Source of the DNA: Phycisphaeraceae bacterium D3-23
GTDB lineage: Bacteria; Planctomycetota; Phycisphaerae; Phycisphaerales; Phycisphaeraceae
Direction of reading: 5' to 3'
NCBI GenBank assembly: GCA_039555135.1
Contig: CP114179.1
Coordinates: 1,860,001 to 1,924,000 of the forward strand
Length of the DNA stretch: 64,000 nt
The stretch's first letter is position 1; every line of letters begins with the position of its first letter. A program made the translations under genes and the position numbers. Below, one piece after another: positions 11,590 through 37,894 of the stretch. Under the pieces are notes generated by a model. That model made no database searches. It saw only the letters and a program-made list of their open reading frames with translations, and had not been told where the DNA came from.

Positions 11590-13221
11590 CTACCGCGGGT
11601 CGCGCCAGTGGAACCCGGCCCCCTCGAAACGCGCCCGGCTTTGCTCGCTGCTCAAGACCTCGAACAAACGACCCATCAGCTGCTTGTGCTCCGACATCTC
11701 CGCAACCGACCACGGCTGCACCGCGCGGGCGAGCCCCGCCCCGCCGTCGTCGATCTCGATGATGTCGAGCGCCTCGGTGTTGGCCGGGCTCGACAGGATG
11801 TTGCTGCGGTAGGCGATCACCGCATCGAGCCCGCCGGTCATGATCTGGCTGATGAGCGTCGGCCCCGTGTCGACCTCGACGGCTTTGGCGTCCTGCACCC
11901 GGCCGTAGATGTTGTCGAACCGGTCGGACGAGAGCATGGCCTGCGTCAGCCGGCCCAGCGCGGAGTCGGTCGGGTGGCATACCCCCAGTCGGACGCCGGG
12001 CTGGAGCAGGTCTTCGGGCGACTCGATGCCGTGCGGGTTGCCCTTGGCGACAGCGATGACGATGTCGTTCTCGGAGACGATGGTGGGCTGGCCGAAGATG
12101 CGCTCGCCGCCGCGCTCCCGGATCGAATCGTAGAACTGCACATCACAGGCGAGGTAGGCCGAGGGGAAGTCGTCGGGGTCTGCACCACTCTCCAGCAGCG
12201 CATCCATCTGCGCCACAAGTTTGCCGCAGCCGGCCCACTGCACGTCGATCCTGACGCCCTCGCGCTCTGCAAACTCGGCGATCGTGTCCTCGAACACGGC
12301 GCGGAACATCGAGCCGCTGTAGAACACCACCGTCGGGAGCTCGTCCCACTTGTCACCCTCGACAACATCAAACCCGTCTCGCTCGAAGTTGGCGAGCCCC
12401 TCGTCGTGGGCCGTAATGAAGCGCGCCAGCCGGAGCGCCTCGGCCGGGCGTTCGCAGGTACTGACCACGGCGACGCCGATGTGGCTGACGTGTTGGCCAA
12501 ACGCTCGGTGCGGGTCTTGAACGACCTCGACGCCGTCGGTCATCGCCGCGATGGTGTCCCAGACCACGGCCGCGTCAAGCGCGCCGACGCGCACCGCATC
12601 GACCAGCGCGACCACCGTCTCCTGCTCGGTCTTGCGGTTCTGCACCAGGGCGTCGCGGATACCCATCGCCTCGGCGATCGCACGGGTTTTTTTGCCCACG
12701 GCCGCGCCCTCGTTGGCGATGCCAAAGTCGATGCCGTTCGCGGGGTCGGCGAGGTCGGCGAGCGAGGTGATGTTCTTCGGGTTGCCCGGGGCGACGATGA
12801 GGACGGGCCGCTGCGTGCCGATGGGCAAGACCTCGGCGAGTATGCCCGCGTCTCGGCCTTCGTCGAAGTAGCTGTCCTCGGCCGAGAGGTAGAGGTCGGG
12901 GGCGGTGCCCAGTTCGTGCTCGGTCTTGATCTGACCAAAGAGCGTGCCCGAGCCGTGCGCGTGGACCTCGACCTTGACGCCGTAGCGCGCTTCGTAGTCG
13001 TCGAGGATCTTCTGGACCGTCGGGCGGACGCCGGCCGCGCAGTAGAGCCGGAGCGGTTCGCCGTTCGCACGATCGTCGCCAGGCTGGATCAGCGGCGCTT
13101 CGCCGCGCAGCGCGAGAGCGGCGATTACCAGCACAAAGAGCACCACGGCGGAGGCGAGGACCAAAACGACGGCGGTATTCGCCGCGCCGCGTGATCGCAC
13201 ACAACACCGTGGGGTAGACAT
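11590..13221 (-). CDS. Membrane-anchored binding protein with two ModA-like domains
   Basis: From the ATG at 13221 the protein has 543 residues: an N-terminal membrane helix, then two periplasmic-binding domains in tandem. The first starts LRLYCAAGVRPTVQKILDDY and has GSGTL and PDLYLSAED, as in molybdate-binding ModA. The second starts TVVFYSGSMFRAVFEDTIAEF and has SAYLACD and a similar hinge region. ModA is normally a single domain of about 230 residues. The 5' end lies inside a GGCAGACA-type repeat: the ATG at 13221 is within one copy. A GTG at 13200 (VRSRGAANTAVVLV) may be the original start. A frame running further upstream only translates repeats. It feeds the adjacent permease and ATPase. 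Confidence 0.82.
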   Translation of the reverse strand: MSTPRCCVRSRGAANTAVVLVLASAVVLFVLVIAALALRGEAPLIQPGDDRANGEPLRLYCAAGVRPTVQKILDDYEARYGVKVEVHAHGSGTLFGQIKTEHELGTAPDLYLSAEDSYFDEGRDAGILAEVLPIGTQRPVLIVAPGNPKNITSLADLADPANGIDFGIANEGAAVGKKTRAIAEAMGIRDALVQNRKTEQETVVALVDAVRVGALDAAVVWDTIAAMTDGVEVVQDPHRAFGQHVSHIGVAVVSTCERPAEALRLARFITAHDEGLANFERDGFDVVEGDKWDELPTVVFYSGSMFRAVFEDTIAEFAEREGVRIDVQWAGCGKLVAQMDALLESGADPDDFPSAYLACDVQFYDSIRERGGERIFGQPTIVSENDIVIAVAKGNPHGIESPEDLLQPGVRLGVCHPTDSALGRLTQAMLSSDRFDNIYGRVQDAKAVEVDTGPTLISQIMTGGLDAVIAYRSNILSSPANTEALDIIEIDDGGAGLARAVQPWSVAEMSEHKQLMGRLFEVLSSEQSRARFEGAGFHWRDPR

Positions 13222-13412
13222 TCCTGTCTGCCGCCGGCTGAAGGCCGAGTGCGGGTGTGTGGCAGCGCGGTTCTCGGCTGCGACGAGAGGCAGACAGGAA
13301 TGTCTGCCCCACGGATCACTTTGTTCACGAGGCAGACAGGAATGTCTGCCCCACGGATCACTTTGTTCACGAGGCAGACAGGAATGTCTGCCCTGCGGAT
13401 CACATTGTTCAC
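13208..13412. repeat. Cluster of four hairpin repeats, three in 42-base tandem
   Basis: One copy of the repeat core GGCAGACATTCCTGTCTGCC (first C changed to T) lies at 13208-13232. Three inverted copies lie in a tandem array with unit length 42 bases, at 13287-13328, 13329-13370 and 13371-13412. The first two units are identical; the third differs at a few bases. Each core is itself a hairpin (GGCAGACA, loop TTCC, TGTCTGCC). The array separates the ModA-like gene from the LolD-like gene and overlaps the start region of the former. Other copies are at 31417, 31553 and 37358. Confidence 0.95.
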
Positions 13413-21148: not shown

Positions 21149-21931
21149 CTAGGGCGACACATTGACGCTTTCGATCGGGTCCCACTGGGTGTGCCAGCTC
21201 AGCGACCAGAGGTTGTTCAGCCGGACGTGGCCCGCAGAGCCGTCGGCCATGACGACGTTGACGCCGAAGTTGTGCCGGTCGATCGATAGCCGGGCCATGT
21301 GGCTGGCGACGACGTTGGCGATATCGCTGTAGGGGTCGGACGTGCTGGTCGGGGGCACATCGGTAACGAGCGGGACCGCCGCGGCCCAGGCGCTGTCAAA
21401 GAACACGGGGTTTTCCGAAAGACTCGCGCGAGAGTCGTCGATCCCCTTGAAGTAGAAGCTCTGGGTCCAGCCACCGCGTTCCAGGCCGGCGTCCCATTGG
21501 CTGAGCTTGTCGATGTCGTACCACCAGTCGCTCATGCCGTAGCTGCCCCAGTGATAATCCGTGCCGTCGTTGATCCACGAGCCCGGGCTGTACTGCCCGG
21601 TCCACGCTGTTGTCGCCGACCCCCAGCCGTTGGCCCCTTCCAACGACGCCTCGGGGCAAACGCGGGCGAGGTCGCTGTCGCCGGTGTACTCCTCCATGTG
21701 CGCGAACCAGAACGTATCGATCTGATGGACGCGGGGCCAGGTCTTGCCCTTGTGCTCGCTGGTCCAGTTGTTGAACGCGATCCCGAGCTGGTGCGTGTTG
21801 CTCAGGCACTGGGCCTGGCGCGCCCCTTTACGCGCCGAGCCCAGCGCGGGCAAAAGGATCGCGATGAGTAGCGCAATGATGGAGATGACGACGAGCAGTT
21901 CGATCAGGGTAAAGGCGTGGGTGCGACGCAT
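21149..21931 (-). CDS. Type II/IV prepilin-like protein with H-X9-DG motif
   Basis: This 260-residue protein begins with a short basic leader and [20 protein letters not shown], the class III signal processed by prepilin peptidase before Phe, with Glu five residues after the cut. The C-terminal part carries H-X9-DG (His in DRHNF, then MADG), typical of the planctomycete prepilin-like families. About 280 members per genome is not unusual in this phylum, so the exact role is unknown: pseudopilin, adhesive pilin or matrix fibre. The paralogue just upstream (21991-22809) shares the same design. Both lie between PEP-CTERM genes and the PQQ gene in module 1. Confidence 0.85.
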
Positions 21932-21990
21932 GGCCAGACTCCGAGGTAAGAGGGGAAAGCGGAGGCGTGAGTCGTGAACTCATGATTGCG

Positions 21991-22809
21991 CTAGGGGTTG
22001 ATCGAGATGCTGTCGTCCTTGATGAAGGTGGCGTGCCACTTCATGTCCCAGAGATCGCCGAGGTGGGCGGACTCGCCGTGGCCGTCGAGGAAGACAAGTT
22101 GTGTATTGCCCTGGTGGCGGTCGACGGTGTGCCGGCCGATCTCGCCCGGCGCGAGGCCGAAGACGAGGAACGGGTCGGGGTTGACGTAGTTGCCGCTGGG
22201 GGTGTTGGTGTGGTGCGGGAGCGAGTCGATCCAGAACCCGTCGCCCATGATGGGGACCTCGGTCGGCGCGATGCGTGCGTCGTCCATGCCGTTGATGAAT
22301 GAGTTCGCGCCGTTCCCGCCACCGATGTAGCCGTCGGCAGCGCCGATGATCGAGCCCGGGGAGCCGACGCCGGACTTGCGTACCTCGAAGAGCCAGCCGT
22401 TGAAGGTGTAGCCCGACTTGAAGCGCTGGTTGTTGACATCGCTGATCGCCTGGGATTCCCAGTAGAGCTCCGCCTCGCCGTAGTAGTTGGCGCCGAAGAA
22501 CGGCGTGTCCGACCGGGCCTTGGTCTTGGGGCAGAGGTTGGCCGACTGCCCGGAGGTGTCGGTCATGTATTCCTCCATCACCGCGATCCAGCTCCCGCCG
22601 CCGACGCTGCCGTACGGCAGTTCGTGGCCGTTGTCGATGGTGTAGGTCGTCTTGGCCCGCCCCCACTGCTGAAGATTCGAGAGGCACTGCGAAGACCGCC
22701 CCGCCTCACGCGCCGCGCCCAGCGCGGGCAGGAGGATGGCGATCAGCAGCGCGATGATGGAGATCACGACGAGCAGTTCGATCAGGGTAAAAGCAGAGCG
22801 GATACGCAT
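21991..22809 (-). CDS. Type II/IV prepilin-like protein with H-X9-DG motif (paralogue)
   Basis: This 272-residue protein has the leader [20 protein letters not shown], a long hydrophobic helix to about residue 28, then a variable exported domain rich in aromatic residues, Gly and Asn. The H-X9-DG motif is present (His in DRHQG, then FLDG), followed by a short C-terminal region ending in Pro. It resembles the next gene downstream in both ends but not in the middle, as expected for a duplicated pilin whose exposed part has diverged. It follows the PEP-CTERM pair on the same strand with about 160 bases between. Confidence 0.85.
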
Positions 22810-23723: not shown

Positions 23724-23742
23724 TGACGAAAGGATGTGAGAC

Positions 23743-24468
23743 TTACGCGCGTCGACGCCGCAGGAGCGCCAGGCCGCCGAGGCCCAGCAGCGCCAGCGAG
23801 CCGGGCTCGGGGACAACTTCGGTCGCGAAGCGGACTTCGCCGATCCCGACGCGGTCGCCGCCGCCGCCCACGCCTTCACCGGCGGGGTCGCCGAAGTGGT
23901 TGTCAGTGAAGGTGAGCTGGACGTACCGGCCCGAGCCGCCGCCCAGGCCGAAGGCCTGCGCCGAGTTGGTCCCGCCCAGCGCGAGTACCGACTCGAGTGT
24001 GATCGTCTGGCTTGGCCCGGCGAAGCTGCCGGTGCCCTGGGCGTCGGTGTTGACGCGGACATCGATGGTGTAGGCATGGTTGCCGATATCGGTGCCGGTC
24101 CCGCCGTTGTTCTGGTATTGCCAGAGCAGGATCGAGCCGACGGTCGTGTCGCCGCCGCCGGTCAGGTCGTAGACGAGGGCTGGCGCGGCAGAGGTCGCGA
24201 AGTAGTCGGGCGCCGCGGCGTTGGTGACCCACGACTGGTTGTACGCACCGCTGAAGTCGTGTGTCGCCGTGAGCGCCGAGGCCAGCGAATCGCCACCGTT
24301 GACCGCGGTGTTCATCCCGTTGTTGTTGACGGTCTCCGTCGGGCTGGCGGGGCCAAACGTGTCCGGGCTAGAGGCCCCCGCAACGTAGGTCGGCGCGATC
24401 ACAGCCGCCGAGGCCGACGCCGCCAGGGTGCCGGCCGCGAGGCCCGCCAAAAGGGTACGAGTCTGCAT
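23743..24468 (-). CDS. PEP-CTERM sorting-tail protein with discoidin-like middle
   Basis: This 241-residue protein starts with MQTRTLLAGLAAGTLAASAS, almost the same signal peptide as the next gene, and ends with VPEPGSLALLGLGGLALL and RRRRA, a PEP-CTERM tail. The middle is a beta-sandwich candidate: regions such as ALVYDLTGGGDTTVGSIL and RYVQLTFTDNHFG resemble F5/8-type (discoidin) carbohydrate-binding domains, though this is a weak call. The gene has a GGAGGA site before the ATG. It is the first PEP-CTERM gene after the FecR anti-sigma gene, and so a likely target of that sigma factor. Confidence 0.85.
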   Translation of the reverse strand: MQTRTLLAGLAAGTLAASASAAVIAPTYVAGASSPDTFGPASPTETVNNNGMNTAVNGGDSLASALTATHDFSGAYNQSWVTNAAAPDYFATSAAPALVYDLTGGGDTTVGSILLWQYQNNGGTGTDIGNHAYTIDVRVNTDAQGTGSFAGPSQTITLESVLALGGTNSAQAFGLGGGSGRYVQLTFTDNHFGDPAGEGVGGGGDRVGIGEVRFATEVVPEPGSLALLGLGGLALLRRRRA

Positions 24469-31416: not shown

Positions 31417-31577
31417 CGTGGGGCAGACATTCCTGTCTGCCGTCGGCCGAAGGCCGAGCCGCTGAGAGCACGAAGCGTAAGTGAGTGTCAGACGTGCGAG
31501 TTCCACCAATACTCACTCACGCTTCGTGCTCTGCGCTCCGGCTTCGCCGGACGGCAGACAGGAATGTCTGCCCCACG
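31417..31577. repeat. Large palindrome capped by two GGCAGACA-type repeats
   Basis: The left arm starts at 31417 with CGTGGGGCAGACATTCCTGT and continues through a small hairpin (CGGCCGAAGGCCG) and AGAGCACGAAGCGTAAGTG. The right arm is its approximate complement, ending at 31577. The two arms enclose about 25 bases. The whole 161-base unit lies between the STAS gene and the end of ygfZ, within a 309-base gap (31271-31579) that holds no gene. Confidence 0.92.
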
Positions 31578-36629: not shown

Positions 36630-37271
36630 ATGAACCCACACGAACCCCACGAACCCGACACCCTGCCGCCCGGGCTGATCGACGCCCTGCGCGGCTGCGA
36701 TGCCGGCCCGATCGCCCCCTCGGACGCACACGACGACGCGCTGCTGGCCGGCGTGCGCGACCACCTCGCGGGGCTGGCGATCCAGCAGCACGAGCGGCGC
36801 GGCCGATCGCGCTACGTCCTCGCCTTCCTCGGTGCCGGGGGCGCGGTCGCCGCCGCTGCGGCCGTGACGTTCGCGGTGTGGATCAACACAAACCCCTCGC
36901 CCGCCGATATGGGCCCGGTCGCGCAACAGGAAGCCGACACCCACAACAGCCGGCGGCCGACGGACGCCGGACCCGTCGACCCGGGGGCGACCGACGAAGC
37001 CGTGCCCCCCCCCGATACCCACGCCCGACCCGGCCGTGTTCCCGGTGATGTTCCGGGGAGTATTCCGGGGGCGCTCGCGGGCGACCTGGACCTGTCGGGC
37101 ACGATCGACATCCTCGACGCCTTCGCGCTGGCCCGCGCGATTGAGGACGACGACCCCGCCGCGCGCTCCCGCGCCAGCGACTTCAACCGCGACGGCAAGG
37201 TCGATCTCCAAGACGCCGACTGGCTCGCGACCCAGGCCGTGTCCCTTCGCCGTGACGGGGGGCGGGGATGA
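36630..37271 (+). CDS. Membrane protein with dockerin-type calcium repeats, possible anti-sigma factor
   Basis: The ATG at 36630 gives 213 residues: a cytoplasmic N-terminus (about 1-60) with many His and Asp, one membrane helix (about 63-82), a Pro-rich linker and a C-terminal dockerin type I domain made of two 12-residue calcium loops (DLDLSGTIDILD and DFNRDGKVDLQD). In the linker, NSRRPTDAGP is encoded by a genomic repeat (36948-36972). A sigma factor directly upstream and a cytoplasmic N-terminus suggest an anti-sigma role with an external calcium-binding module. This is inferred only. It overlaps the next gene by four bases. Confidence 0.6.
   Translation: MNPHEPHEPDTLPPGLIDALRGCDAGPIAPSDAHDDALLAGVRDHLAGLAIQQHERRGRSRYVLAFLGAGGAVAAAAAVTFAVWINTNPSPADMGPVAQQEADTHNSRRPTDAGPVDPGATDEAVPPPDTHARPGRVPGDVPGSIPGALAGDLDLSGTIDILDAFALARAIEDDDPAARSRASDFNRDGKVDLQDADWLATQAVSLRRDGGRG
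36948..36972. repeat. AGCCGGCGGCC repeat inside a gene, copy A
   Basis: A 25-base copy, one base different from the arm at 16711-16736, lies in frame in the dockerin gene and encodes SRRPTDAG. It is in a linker, where an insertion would do least harm. Confidence 0.85.
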
Positions 37272-37894
37272 TGCGCAGCCGTTACGTCATCGCGATGCTC
37301 GTTGTATTGATGCTTGCCACCGGCAGCGTGATCGCCCTGGGCGCGGTGCCCTCCAAGCGTGGGGCAGACATTCCTGCCTGCCGTTCGGCGAAACCGAAAT
37401 CGCCTACGTCTGCCACCGCCAAGCACACCCGCACAGCCCCTCCGCAGAAACAGGCCGAGCCCGACAACGCCGCCCGCCCCCCCGCCACCCGCTTCGCCAC
37501 GCTCACCGTTTCGATCGACCCCAAGGGCGCGCCGCTGGCCGCGTATCAGTTCGAGGTCACGGCCGGGCACGCCTTCACCGTCGTCGGGCTCGATAACGCG
37601 GGCAACCCCACCTTCCCCGACGCCCCGCGCTACGACCGCTCCGCCAACGCCGACGCGACCGACCGGCTGATCGTCGCCGACTACTCGACCGCCGGGCCCG
37701 GCCAACTCATCGCCAAGCCCTACCCCGTCGCGACGATCCACGCCGCGTTCGTGCTGGACGCGGACACCGACATCAACCGCCTCATCGACAGCGTCGCGCT
37801 CGCGCTCACCGCCGCGGCCGACGCGGACGGCAACCCGATCGACGCCGACATCACCTTCGACCTCCACTTCGCACAAGGCCAGGGAACGGAATGA
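37268..37894 (+). CDS. Exported protein of unknown function, repeat-containing
   Basis: I do not recognise the family. The 208-residue protein starts with MMRSRYVIAMLVVLMLATGS, a membrane helix or signal peptide. Residues about 30-42 (KRGADIPACRSAKP) are encoded by a GGCAGACA-type repeat at 37358-37382. A Thr/Pro-rich linker follows, then a beta-rich domain (about 75-208) with TLTVSIDPKGAPLAAYQFEV. It weakly recalls cohesin-like folds, which would fit the dockerin-bearing neighbour, but the similarity is too slight to claim. Four-base overlaps at both ends couple it to the dockerin and vWA genes. Confidence 0.55.
   Translation: MMRSRYVIAMLVVLMLATGSVIALGAVPSKRGADIPACRSAKPKSPTSATAKHTRTAPPQKQAEPDNAARPPATRFATLTVSIDPKGAPLAAYQFEVTAGHAFTVVGLDNAGNPTFPDAPRYDRSANADATDRLIVADYSTAGPGQLIAKPYPVATIHAAFVLDADTDINRLIDSVALALTAAADADGNPIDADITFDLHFAQGQGTE
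37358..37382. repeat. GGCAGACA-type hairpin repeat inside a gene
   Basis: A copy of the GGCAGACATTCCTG(T/C)CTGCC core lies in frame in the gene at 37268-37894 and encodes GADIPACR. It carries one base change in the right half-stem. Confidence 0.88.

Follow-up and report, generated by a model that had tools for sequence, protein, structure and literature searches.

Hairpin repeats in the window

The analysed stretch of DNA (the window, 64 kb, G000:C1:1860001-1924000) belongs to a genome consisting of a single contig of 4,619,879 bases (4.62 Mb). It carries facing hairpin pairs, a tandem array and a single copy inside an open frame (Table 1). When the window was searched with the 20-mer core of the hairpin (at most 3 mismatches), seven matches were obtained, compared with none in 100 shuffles. 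All seven copies claimed in the sequence-only reading were therefore real, with true starts at 13213+, 13289-, 13331-, 13373-, 31422+, 31553- and 37363+; the plus-strand starts given there (13208, 31417 and 37358) lay five bases early because CGTGG had been taken in. Five copies were exact, and those at 13213 (GGTAGA) and 37363 (CCTGCCTGCC) each contained a single mismatch. The 42-base array had also been recognised correctly, each unit consisting of one REP arm and 22 bp of flank, as had the larger inverted pairs (13207-13232 with 13289-13314, and 31417-31459 with 31535-31577). The spacing of REPIN 2 was 131, longer than that of most pairs.

Table 1. Coordinates of the repeats and of the open frame that carries one of them (window positions)
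Feature	Position	Strand	Details
REPIN 1, facing pair	13209..13312		Plus arm 13209-13232 (foot GTGG, hairpin 13213-13232); minus arm 13289-13312 (hairpin 13289-13308, foot 13309-13312); site empty in G002
Tandem array, 3 x 42 bp	13287..13412	-	Hairpins 13289-13308, 13331-13350 and 13373-13392; identity 100/100/93%
REPIN 2, facing pair	31418..31576		Plus arm 31418-31441; minus arm 31553-31576; empty in G002
Unrelated inverted repeat, nested in REPIN 2 centre	31465..31532		Arms 31465-31486 and 31511-31532
Single REP	37359..37382	+	Foot GTGG 37359-37362, hairpin 37363-37382; in-frame reading RGADIPAC
208-aa open frame with in-frame REP insertion	37268..37894	+	G002 orthologue without insertion

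Three other short stretches of the window (~21830-21935, ~22700-22795 and ~23738-23821) had dozens of matches of 74-93% identity per genome in G001, G002 and G003, with a smaller number in G004. Our guess is that a large family of proteins, for example prepilin-like ones, has its conserved beginning encoded here.

Anatomy of the family across the genome

A count of the core in the complete genome, as the sequence-only reading had proposed, gave 45 rows on the plus strand and 45 on the minus strand (at most 3 mismatches), and the reversed control gave 0 and 0. These rows represented 89 distinct copies, because one palindromic locus was counted on both strands. The foot was GTGG in 74 of the 89 copies and GTAG in 4, and the hairpin comprised an 8-bp stem (GGCAGACA / TGTCTGCC) closed by the loop TTCC. 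In 57 copies another perfect hairpin, 5 bp or longer, lay within 4 bases, whereas the other 32 had no clear second hairpin. The loop of this second hairpin was GAA, GCA or GTA in 44 of the 57, and its stem varied on both sides (TTCGGC/GCCGAA, CAGGCC/GGCCTG and TCAGGAC/GTCCTGA). Triloops of the C-GNA-G type are known for high stability in DNA and would fit a role in single-stranded DNA. The 24-mer of foot and hairpin was open in all six frames in 80/89 copies, a count that includes related copies, compared with 27% of shuffles.

Neighbouring copies less than 200 bp apart were predominantly facing (26 facing, 0 back-to-back and 2 tandem). The spacing of facing pairs was 62-82 in 24 of the 26 and 131 (REPIN 2 of the window) and 156 in the other two. 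The second stems of the two arms differed in type (A and B) in 19 of the 26 pairs; one pair was BB, and in six pairs one arm could not be typed. We considered whether the pairs were copies of one master REPIN together with its centre, and this was ruled out: the centres of 24 pairs shared no words beyond the shuffled level (mean 4.04 versus 3.92; longest 7 versus 8). With centres this dissimilar, the pairs are not plain duplicates of a single master. A common sequence resembling GTAGGGTGGGTGGAGCGAGTCCGCGAG, apparently another repeat family, came after the single REPs at G000:C1:1592488, 2091677 and 3124062 (L128, L023 and L132).

Probable mobility of the repeats and their cognate RAYT

A genome of the same genus (G002, 98% complete) was colinear with G000 around the window and lacked both the cluster 13207-13412 and the REPIN 31417-31577. 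The G002 orthologue of the gene at 37268-37894 had 54 bases fewer, and the REP-bearing stretch aligned at 37363-37416; this gene holds the 37363 copy as an in-frame insertion. The presence/absence comparison suggested at the outset thus found all three window sites empty in a close relative. The hairpins are strong and perfect, and at two of the three window sites they fall in gaps between long open frames or at the frames' ends; they might instead be host regulatory, terminator or protein-binding structures under selection rather than mobile DNA. We rejected a terminator or regulatory origin because the sites were empty in G002 and one copy lay in frame in a gene. An Rfam scan of the window, which returned one tRNA and no family at the repeats, also argued against such structures, as did the existence of a RAYT with the same ends (described below), and we regard this explanation as very improbable.

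The spread of the repeats was patchy: the window motif (at most 2 mismatches) was detected in six out of 61 genomes, with G000 counted among the six. A degenerate form of the stem was present in 20 of 298 genomes of the class, with at least six copies in eleven genomes from three families. G002 contained 11 copies, all with a sister stem, and its RAYT match was only 30%; G027 contained 37 copies and no RAYT match, which speaks against a strict tie between repeat and transposase.

The sequence-only reading had raised the possibility of an unseen transposase and suggested looking for a RAYT. A PF01797 search of the genome yielded three matches, and one of them, at C1:1312938-1313393 and 0.55 Mb from the window, encodes a RAYT of 152 aa beginning MSEPPNK. 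It was flanked by perfect REP copies at 1312898+ and 1313407-, 509 bp apart. The protein scored 39.8 bits against PF01797 (cut-off 23) and contained the motifs DHVH and YLLANP; the HuH motif, the Y---NP core and the match to the family model place it in TnpA-Y1 class 2. A catalytic Tyr in the stretch WQDESYDR was also considered and dropped, as PMC6006769 puts the Tyr in Y---NP.

Related RAYTs were accompanied by related stems. In G001, a relative with 60% identity was flanked on both sides by a REPIN with the stem GACAGGCATTCCTGCCTGTC. The same stem, two compensatory changes away from that of the window, bounded a relative in G022 (50%) that was broken. Four of the eleven motif-rich genomes (G083, G102, G190 and G206) contained RAYTs 48-61% identical to that of the window genome. 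These nearest outside relatives extended a ThiD2-ThiE protein at its C-terminus (Pfam annotation for one of the four genomes), were joined to it through REP peptides such as VGQTFLSA, which is the window REP read in frame, and grouped with the window genome's RAYT on the tree (SH-aLRT 98).

The family thus combined a tetranucleotide foot beside a short palindrome, many facing doublets, a cognate RAYT and presence/absence in relatives, and the earlier description of the repeats as REP/BIME- or MITE-like was supported, with REP/REPIN as the accurate name. The facing arms match the terminal inverted repeats expected of a MITE, for which target-site duplication is the customary criterion. REPs are typically extragenic; of the three window sites, one was intragenic. 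The REPs might still have spread without this RAYT, by another Y1 transposase or by recombination, the RAYT being bounded by REPs incidentally. The 37 copies in G027, where no RAYT match was found, and the further Y1 genes in the G000 genome favour such a route, whereas the perfect REP copies on both sides of the RAYT and the cognate stem variants beside the related RAYTs in G001 and G022 speak against it; we judge it improbable. Rather, the hairpins are very likely to be REP elements, for the most part paired as REPINs, that are mobilised in trans by the RAYT at C1:1312938-1313393, a gene with the same REPs at its ends. As a HuH-tyrosine, IS200-like transposase acting in trans, the RAYT would recognise the foot and hairpin in single-stranded DNA, excise the unit and reinsert it. 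The window finding is a well-supported new REP/REPIN family with its own RAYT.

A transposase inside valyl-tRNA synthetase

A second RAYT of the same genome, at C1:1599847 and 48% identical to that at C1:1312938, lay in frame inside a 1314-residue open frame with ValS on both sides; this was the genome's sole match to ValS. The unit ended in an exact 24-nt inverted repeat, GGTGGCACAGGCATCCTGCCTGTG, and its REP gave 25 rows (at most 3 mismatches) in the genome compared with 0 in the control. G002, G003, G007 and G009 had a short loop without an insert at the same place in ValS, and G040, G052, G157, G297 and G321 carried RAYTs there. In G044 and G048 the same place was occupied by a different Y1 transposase (PF01797 24.3 and 35.3 bits, cut-off 23) with NHIH or NHVH and YVLHEQ motifs, as described for class 3, and inverted ends of 30 and 27 nt.

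The interrupted ValS was the only ValS match at E <=1e-8 in 14 of 14 genomes, a threshold at which it appears in several genomes as two pieces of one frame and a more distant second copy is possible. An AlphaFold model of a ValS-RAYT fragment contained a part with pLDDT of about 80 that matched 4er8, the structure of a RAYT in complex with a REP hairpin (E 2.9e-7); the mean pLDDT was 43.2 and the host part was poor. The model of a PurH-RAYT protein had a mean pLDDT of 35.6 and an unusable host part.

Embedded RAYTs across the class

A query with the ValS-type RAYT (E <=1e-12) matched 101 places in 75 of the 298 class genomes. The unit lay in frame within, or as an extension of, an identifiable host gene in 78 of the 101 places (62 of 298 genomes), to which G052 is added, and 23 were free or unassigned; the share of 78/101 is inflated because the query is itself an embedded RAYT. 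The four ThiE extensions are among the 78. We identified hosts from Pfam or NCBIfam matches of representatives and assigned further loci through BLAST clusters and joint motifs; some frames end at a contig edge. Among the 79, ValS was the host six times at site 1, thirteen times at site 2 and once at site 3, IleS three and four times at two sites, LeuS eight times and PurH twelve times. The others lay in DinG-like helicases (seven), DUF1156 proteins (six), Eco57I-like methylases (five), ThiE (four), RdgB (three), GcvP (two) and one each in MmeI-like, SNF2/PLD, MgsA/RarA, ETF and type ISP proteins. In this class sample, the same site of a host was used repeatedly. Units at ValS site 2, at the second IleS site and in seven of the eight LeuS cases were inserted shortly before VATTRPETM, LVWTTTPWTL and V(F/Y)TTRPDT, respectively, which we take from homology to be equivalent positions where the chain enters the editing domain.

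A search with NF047646 matched 155 of 198 class genomes. Among the matches listed, open frames of at least 600 aa occurred in only 8 rows and free RAYTs dominated the top rows, which makes embedded units the smaller share of all RAYTs. Among the matches listed from the genome collection, the best 80 named loci included 17 ValS/IleS/PurH/RdgB/GcvP/MgsA loci and one HSP70 locus, all with titles of the Planctomycetota, Phycisphaerae or Phycisphaerales type; outside that group, the matches listed included PriA (Limisphaerales) and archease (a deltaproteobacterium). Short flanks, which make a RAYT look free, were found in 48 of 82 frames among the matches listed there.

Several individual loci were also observed. 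A RAYT domain lay inside an HSP70 frame of the Phycisphaerales (L290:3349-6063) and inside a PriA frame of the Limisphaerales (L360:331-3369), and a DUF1156 frame from a deltaproteobacterium (L286:3340-6813) combined a RAYT-type domain with a GIY-YIG domain. Tandem in-frame REP peptides, such as repeated HRRDACATSG or TSRAREEAGS, lengthened the joints in L192, L193, L198, L265 and L276. Three equal-scoring RAYT copies stood in a row, 1578 bases apart, at G127:C1:2614672-2618295.

State and descent of the embedded units

The HuH motif was retained in 78 of the 79 embedded RAYTs, Y...NP in 66 and both in 66 (19 of 23 for the free ones). Exact inverted ends of at least 12 nt bounded 52 of 77 embedded units, compared with 1 of 70 flanks taken 300 nt further out, in a test in which seven units had no control and some repeats were not REP-like. 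The NG86 dN/dS was defined for eight of ten embedded pairs and ranged from 0.06 to 0.43, with dS near 2 or above in four of these eight and three pairs sharing one row; the other two were undefined. YN00 gave 0.64 for the pair at 0.43. On a domain tree of 105 of the 117 domains (12 dropped by score or length), built by a quick method without bootstrap, there were 30 host-label changes compared with 73.3 in shuffles, and none of 200 shuffles was as low. RAYT lineages follow their host genes, with several host switches.

The embedded RAYTs could in principle reflect faulty assembly, pseudogenes accompanied by an intact copy, or inserts that RNA or protein splicing removes, and many of the genomes are indeed draft assemblies. 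Embedded units were nevertheless present in the single-contig genomes G000 and G297 and in the two-contig G052, and the frames were stop-free. The sole ValS matches at E <=1e-8 in the 14 genomes above oppose the pseudogene explanation. With regard to splicing, Rfam gave no match in 17 loci, and no intein family appeared in the Pfam tables of 28 frames (E <=1e-5, part at 1e-3). We consider artefact or splicing a far-fetched explanation.

A less remote, although still rather unlikely, explanation is that the embedded RAYTs are domesticated domains serving the host enzyme and not resident selfish elements. The host-gene specificity of the lineages, the purifying selection in pairs with defined dS, and the lack of the complete pair of catalytic patterns in about a sixth of units are in its favour. 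Against domestication stand the patchy presence (the empty ValS loops in G002, G003, G007 and G009), the retained inverted ends, the fact that the REP of the ValS unit is itself a repeat family, the occupation of this ValS site in G044 and G048 by another class of transposase, and the several host switches.

We give about an even chance to the reading that Phycisphaerae RAYT lineages live inside host proteins, where units settle in frame at tolerant enzyme loops, are translated within the only host enzyme and colonise the same loops repeatedly. Very likely, the window family is one of a wider set in the class with ends that the ribosome can read through, and a REP or a whole REP-RAYT-REP unit can therefore settle in frame inside a gene. 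Judging from the intact frames, motifs and dN/dS, the embedded transposases may be made within the host protein and may still be active. As the embedded unit would be part of the only host enzyme, it could be lost only by exact excision. The loops that appear to be recolonised are those before TTRPxT (ValS and LeuS), the matching TTTPWT (IleS) and the ValS loop before YPERYAK, the last of which the different transposase class may also have colonised.

Relation to known systems

The residents most similar in lifestyle are inteins and the like, in which a nuclease lives in frame at recurring sites of essential genes. Unlike inteins, the embedded RAYTs have no detected splicing domain, and the inserted part apparently remains in the protein.

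REPINs and their RAYTs have been described in Pseudomonas fluorescens (PMC3116915). According to the parts of that paper compared, the present family shares the facing REP doublets with a RAYT, a variable spacer of fairly fixed length and compensatory hairpin changes, and differs in its stem, the frequent second hairpin with a GNA loop, the unrelated centres and the in-frame gene copies. GTAG-tagged REP families include those of R. baltica and the GTGG-footed GTAG-20 of Opitutus terrae (PMC3733652). In the portions of that work compared, the likeness in described features covers the foot, a stem of 6-13 bp, the short loop, HH dimers, tandem reiteration with flank, in-frame intragenic copies and presence in the PVC group; embedded RAYTs are unmentioned in those portions. 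In the TnpA-Y1 classification, as far as the sections compared describe it, HuH with Y---NP defines class 2 and Y----Q class 3 (PMC6006769), and the elements here resemble both classes in their HuH and Tyr motifs and REPtron layout. In its subclass 2.4, REPs lie in frame inside the transposase itself, whereas here the whole REP-RAYT-REP unit lies in frame inside housekeeping proteins. The same sections discard long transposase proteins as fusions or annotation errors. No report of a RAYT inside valS, ileS, leuS or purH was found in the open-licence literature, in a search covering few subscription papers or preprints.

With the window family, Phycisphaerae gain a REP/REPIN system that has a RAYT of its own. 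Of greater importance are the embedded units, which merit specialist attention. A transposase translated within the only ValS, or within PurH or IleS, would represent intein-like persistence without splicing, and such units could explain the long "fused" transposases that have been set aside as errors. They would also provide dozens of natural insertions that indicate where essential enzymes bear about 150 extra residues, and they open the question of RAYT persistence to direct testing.
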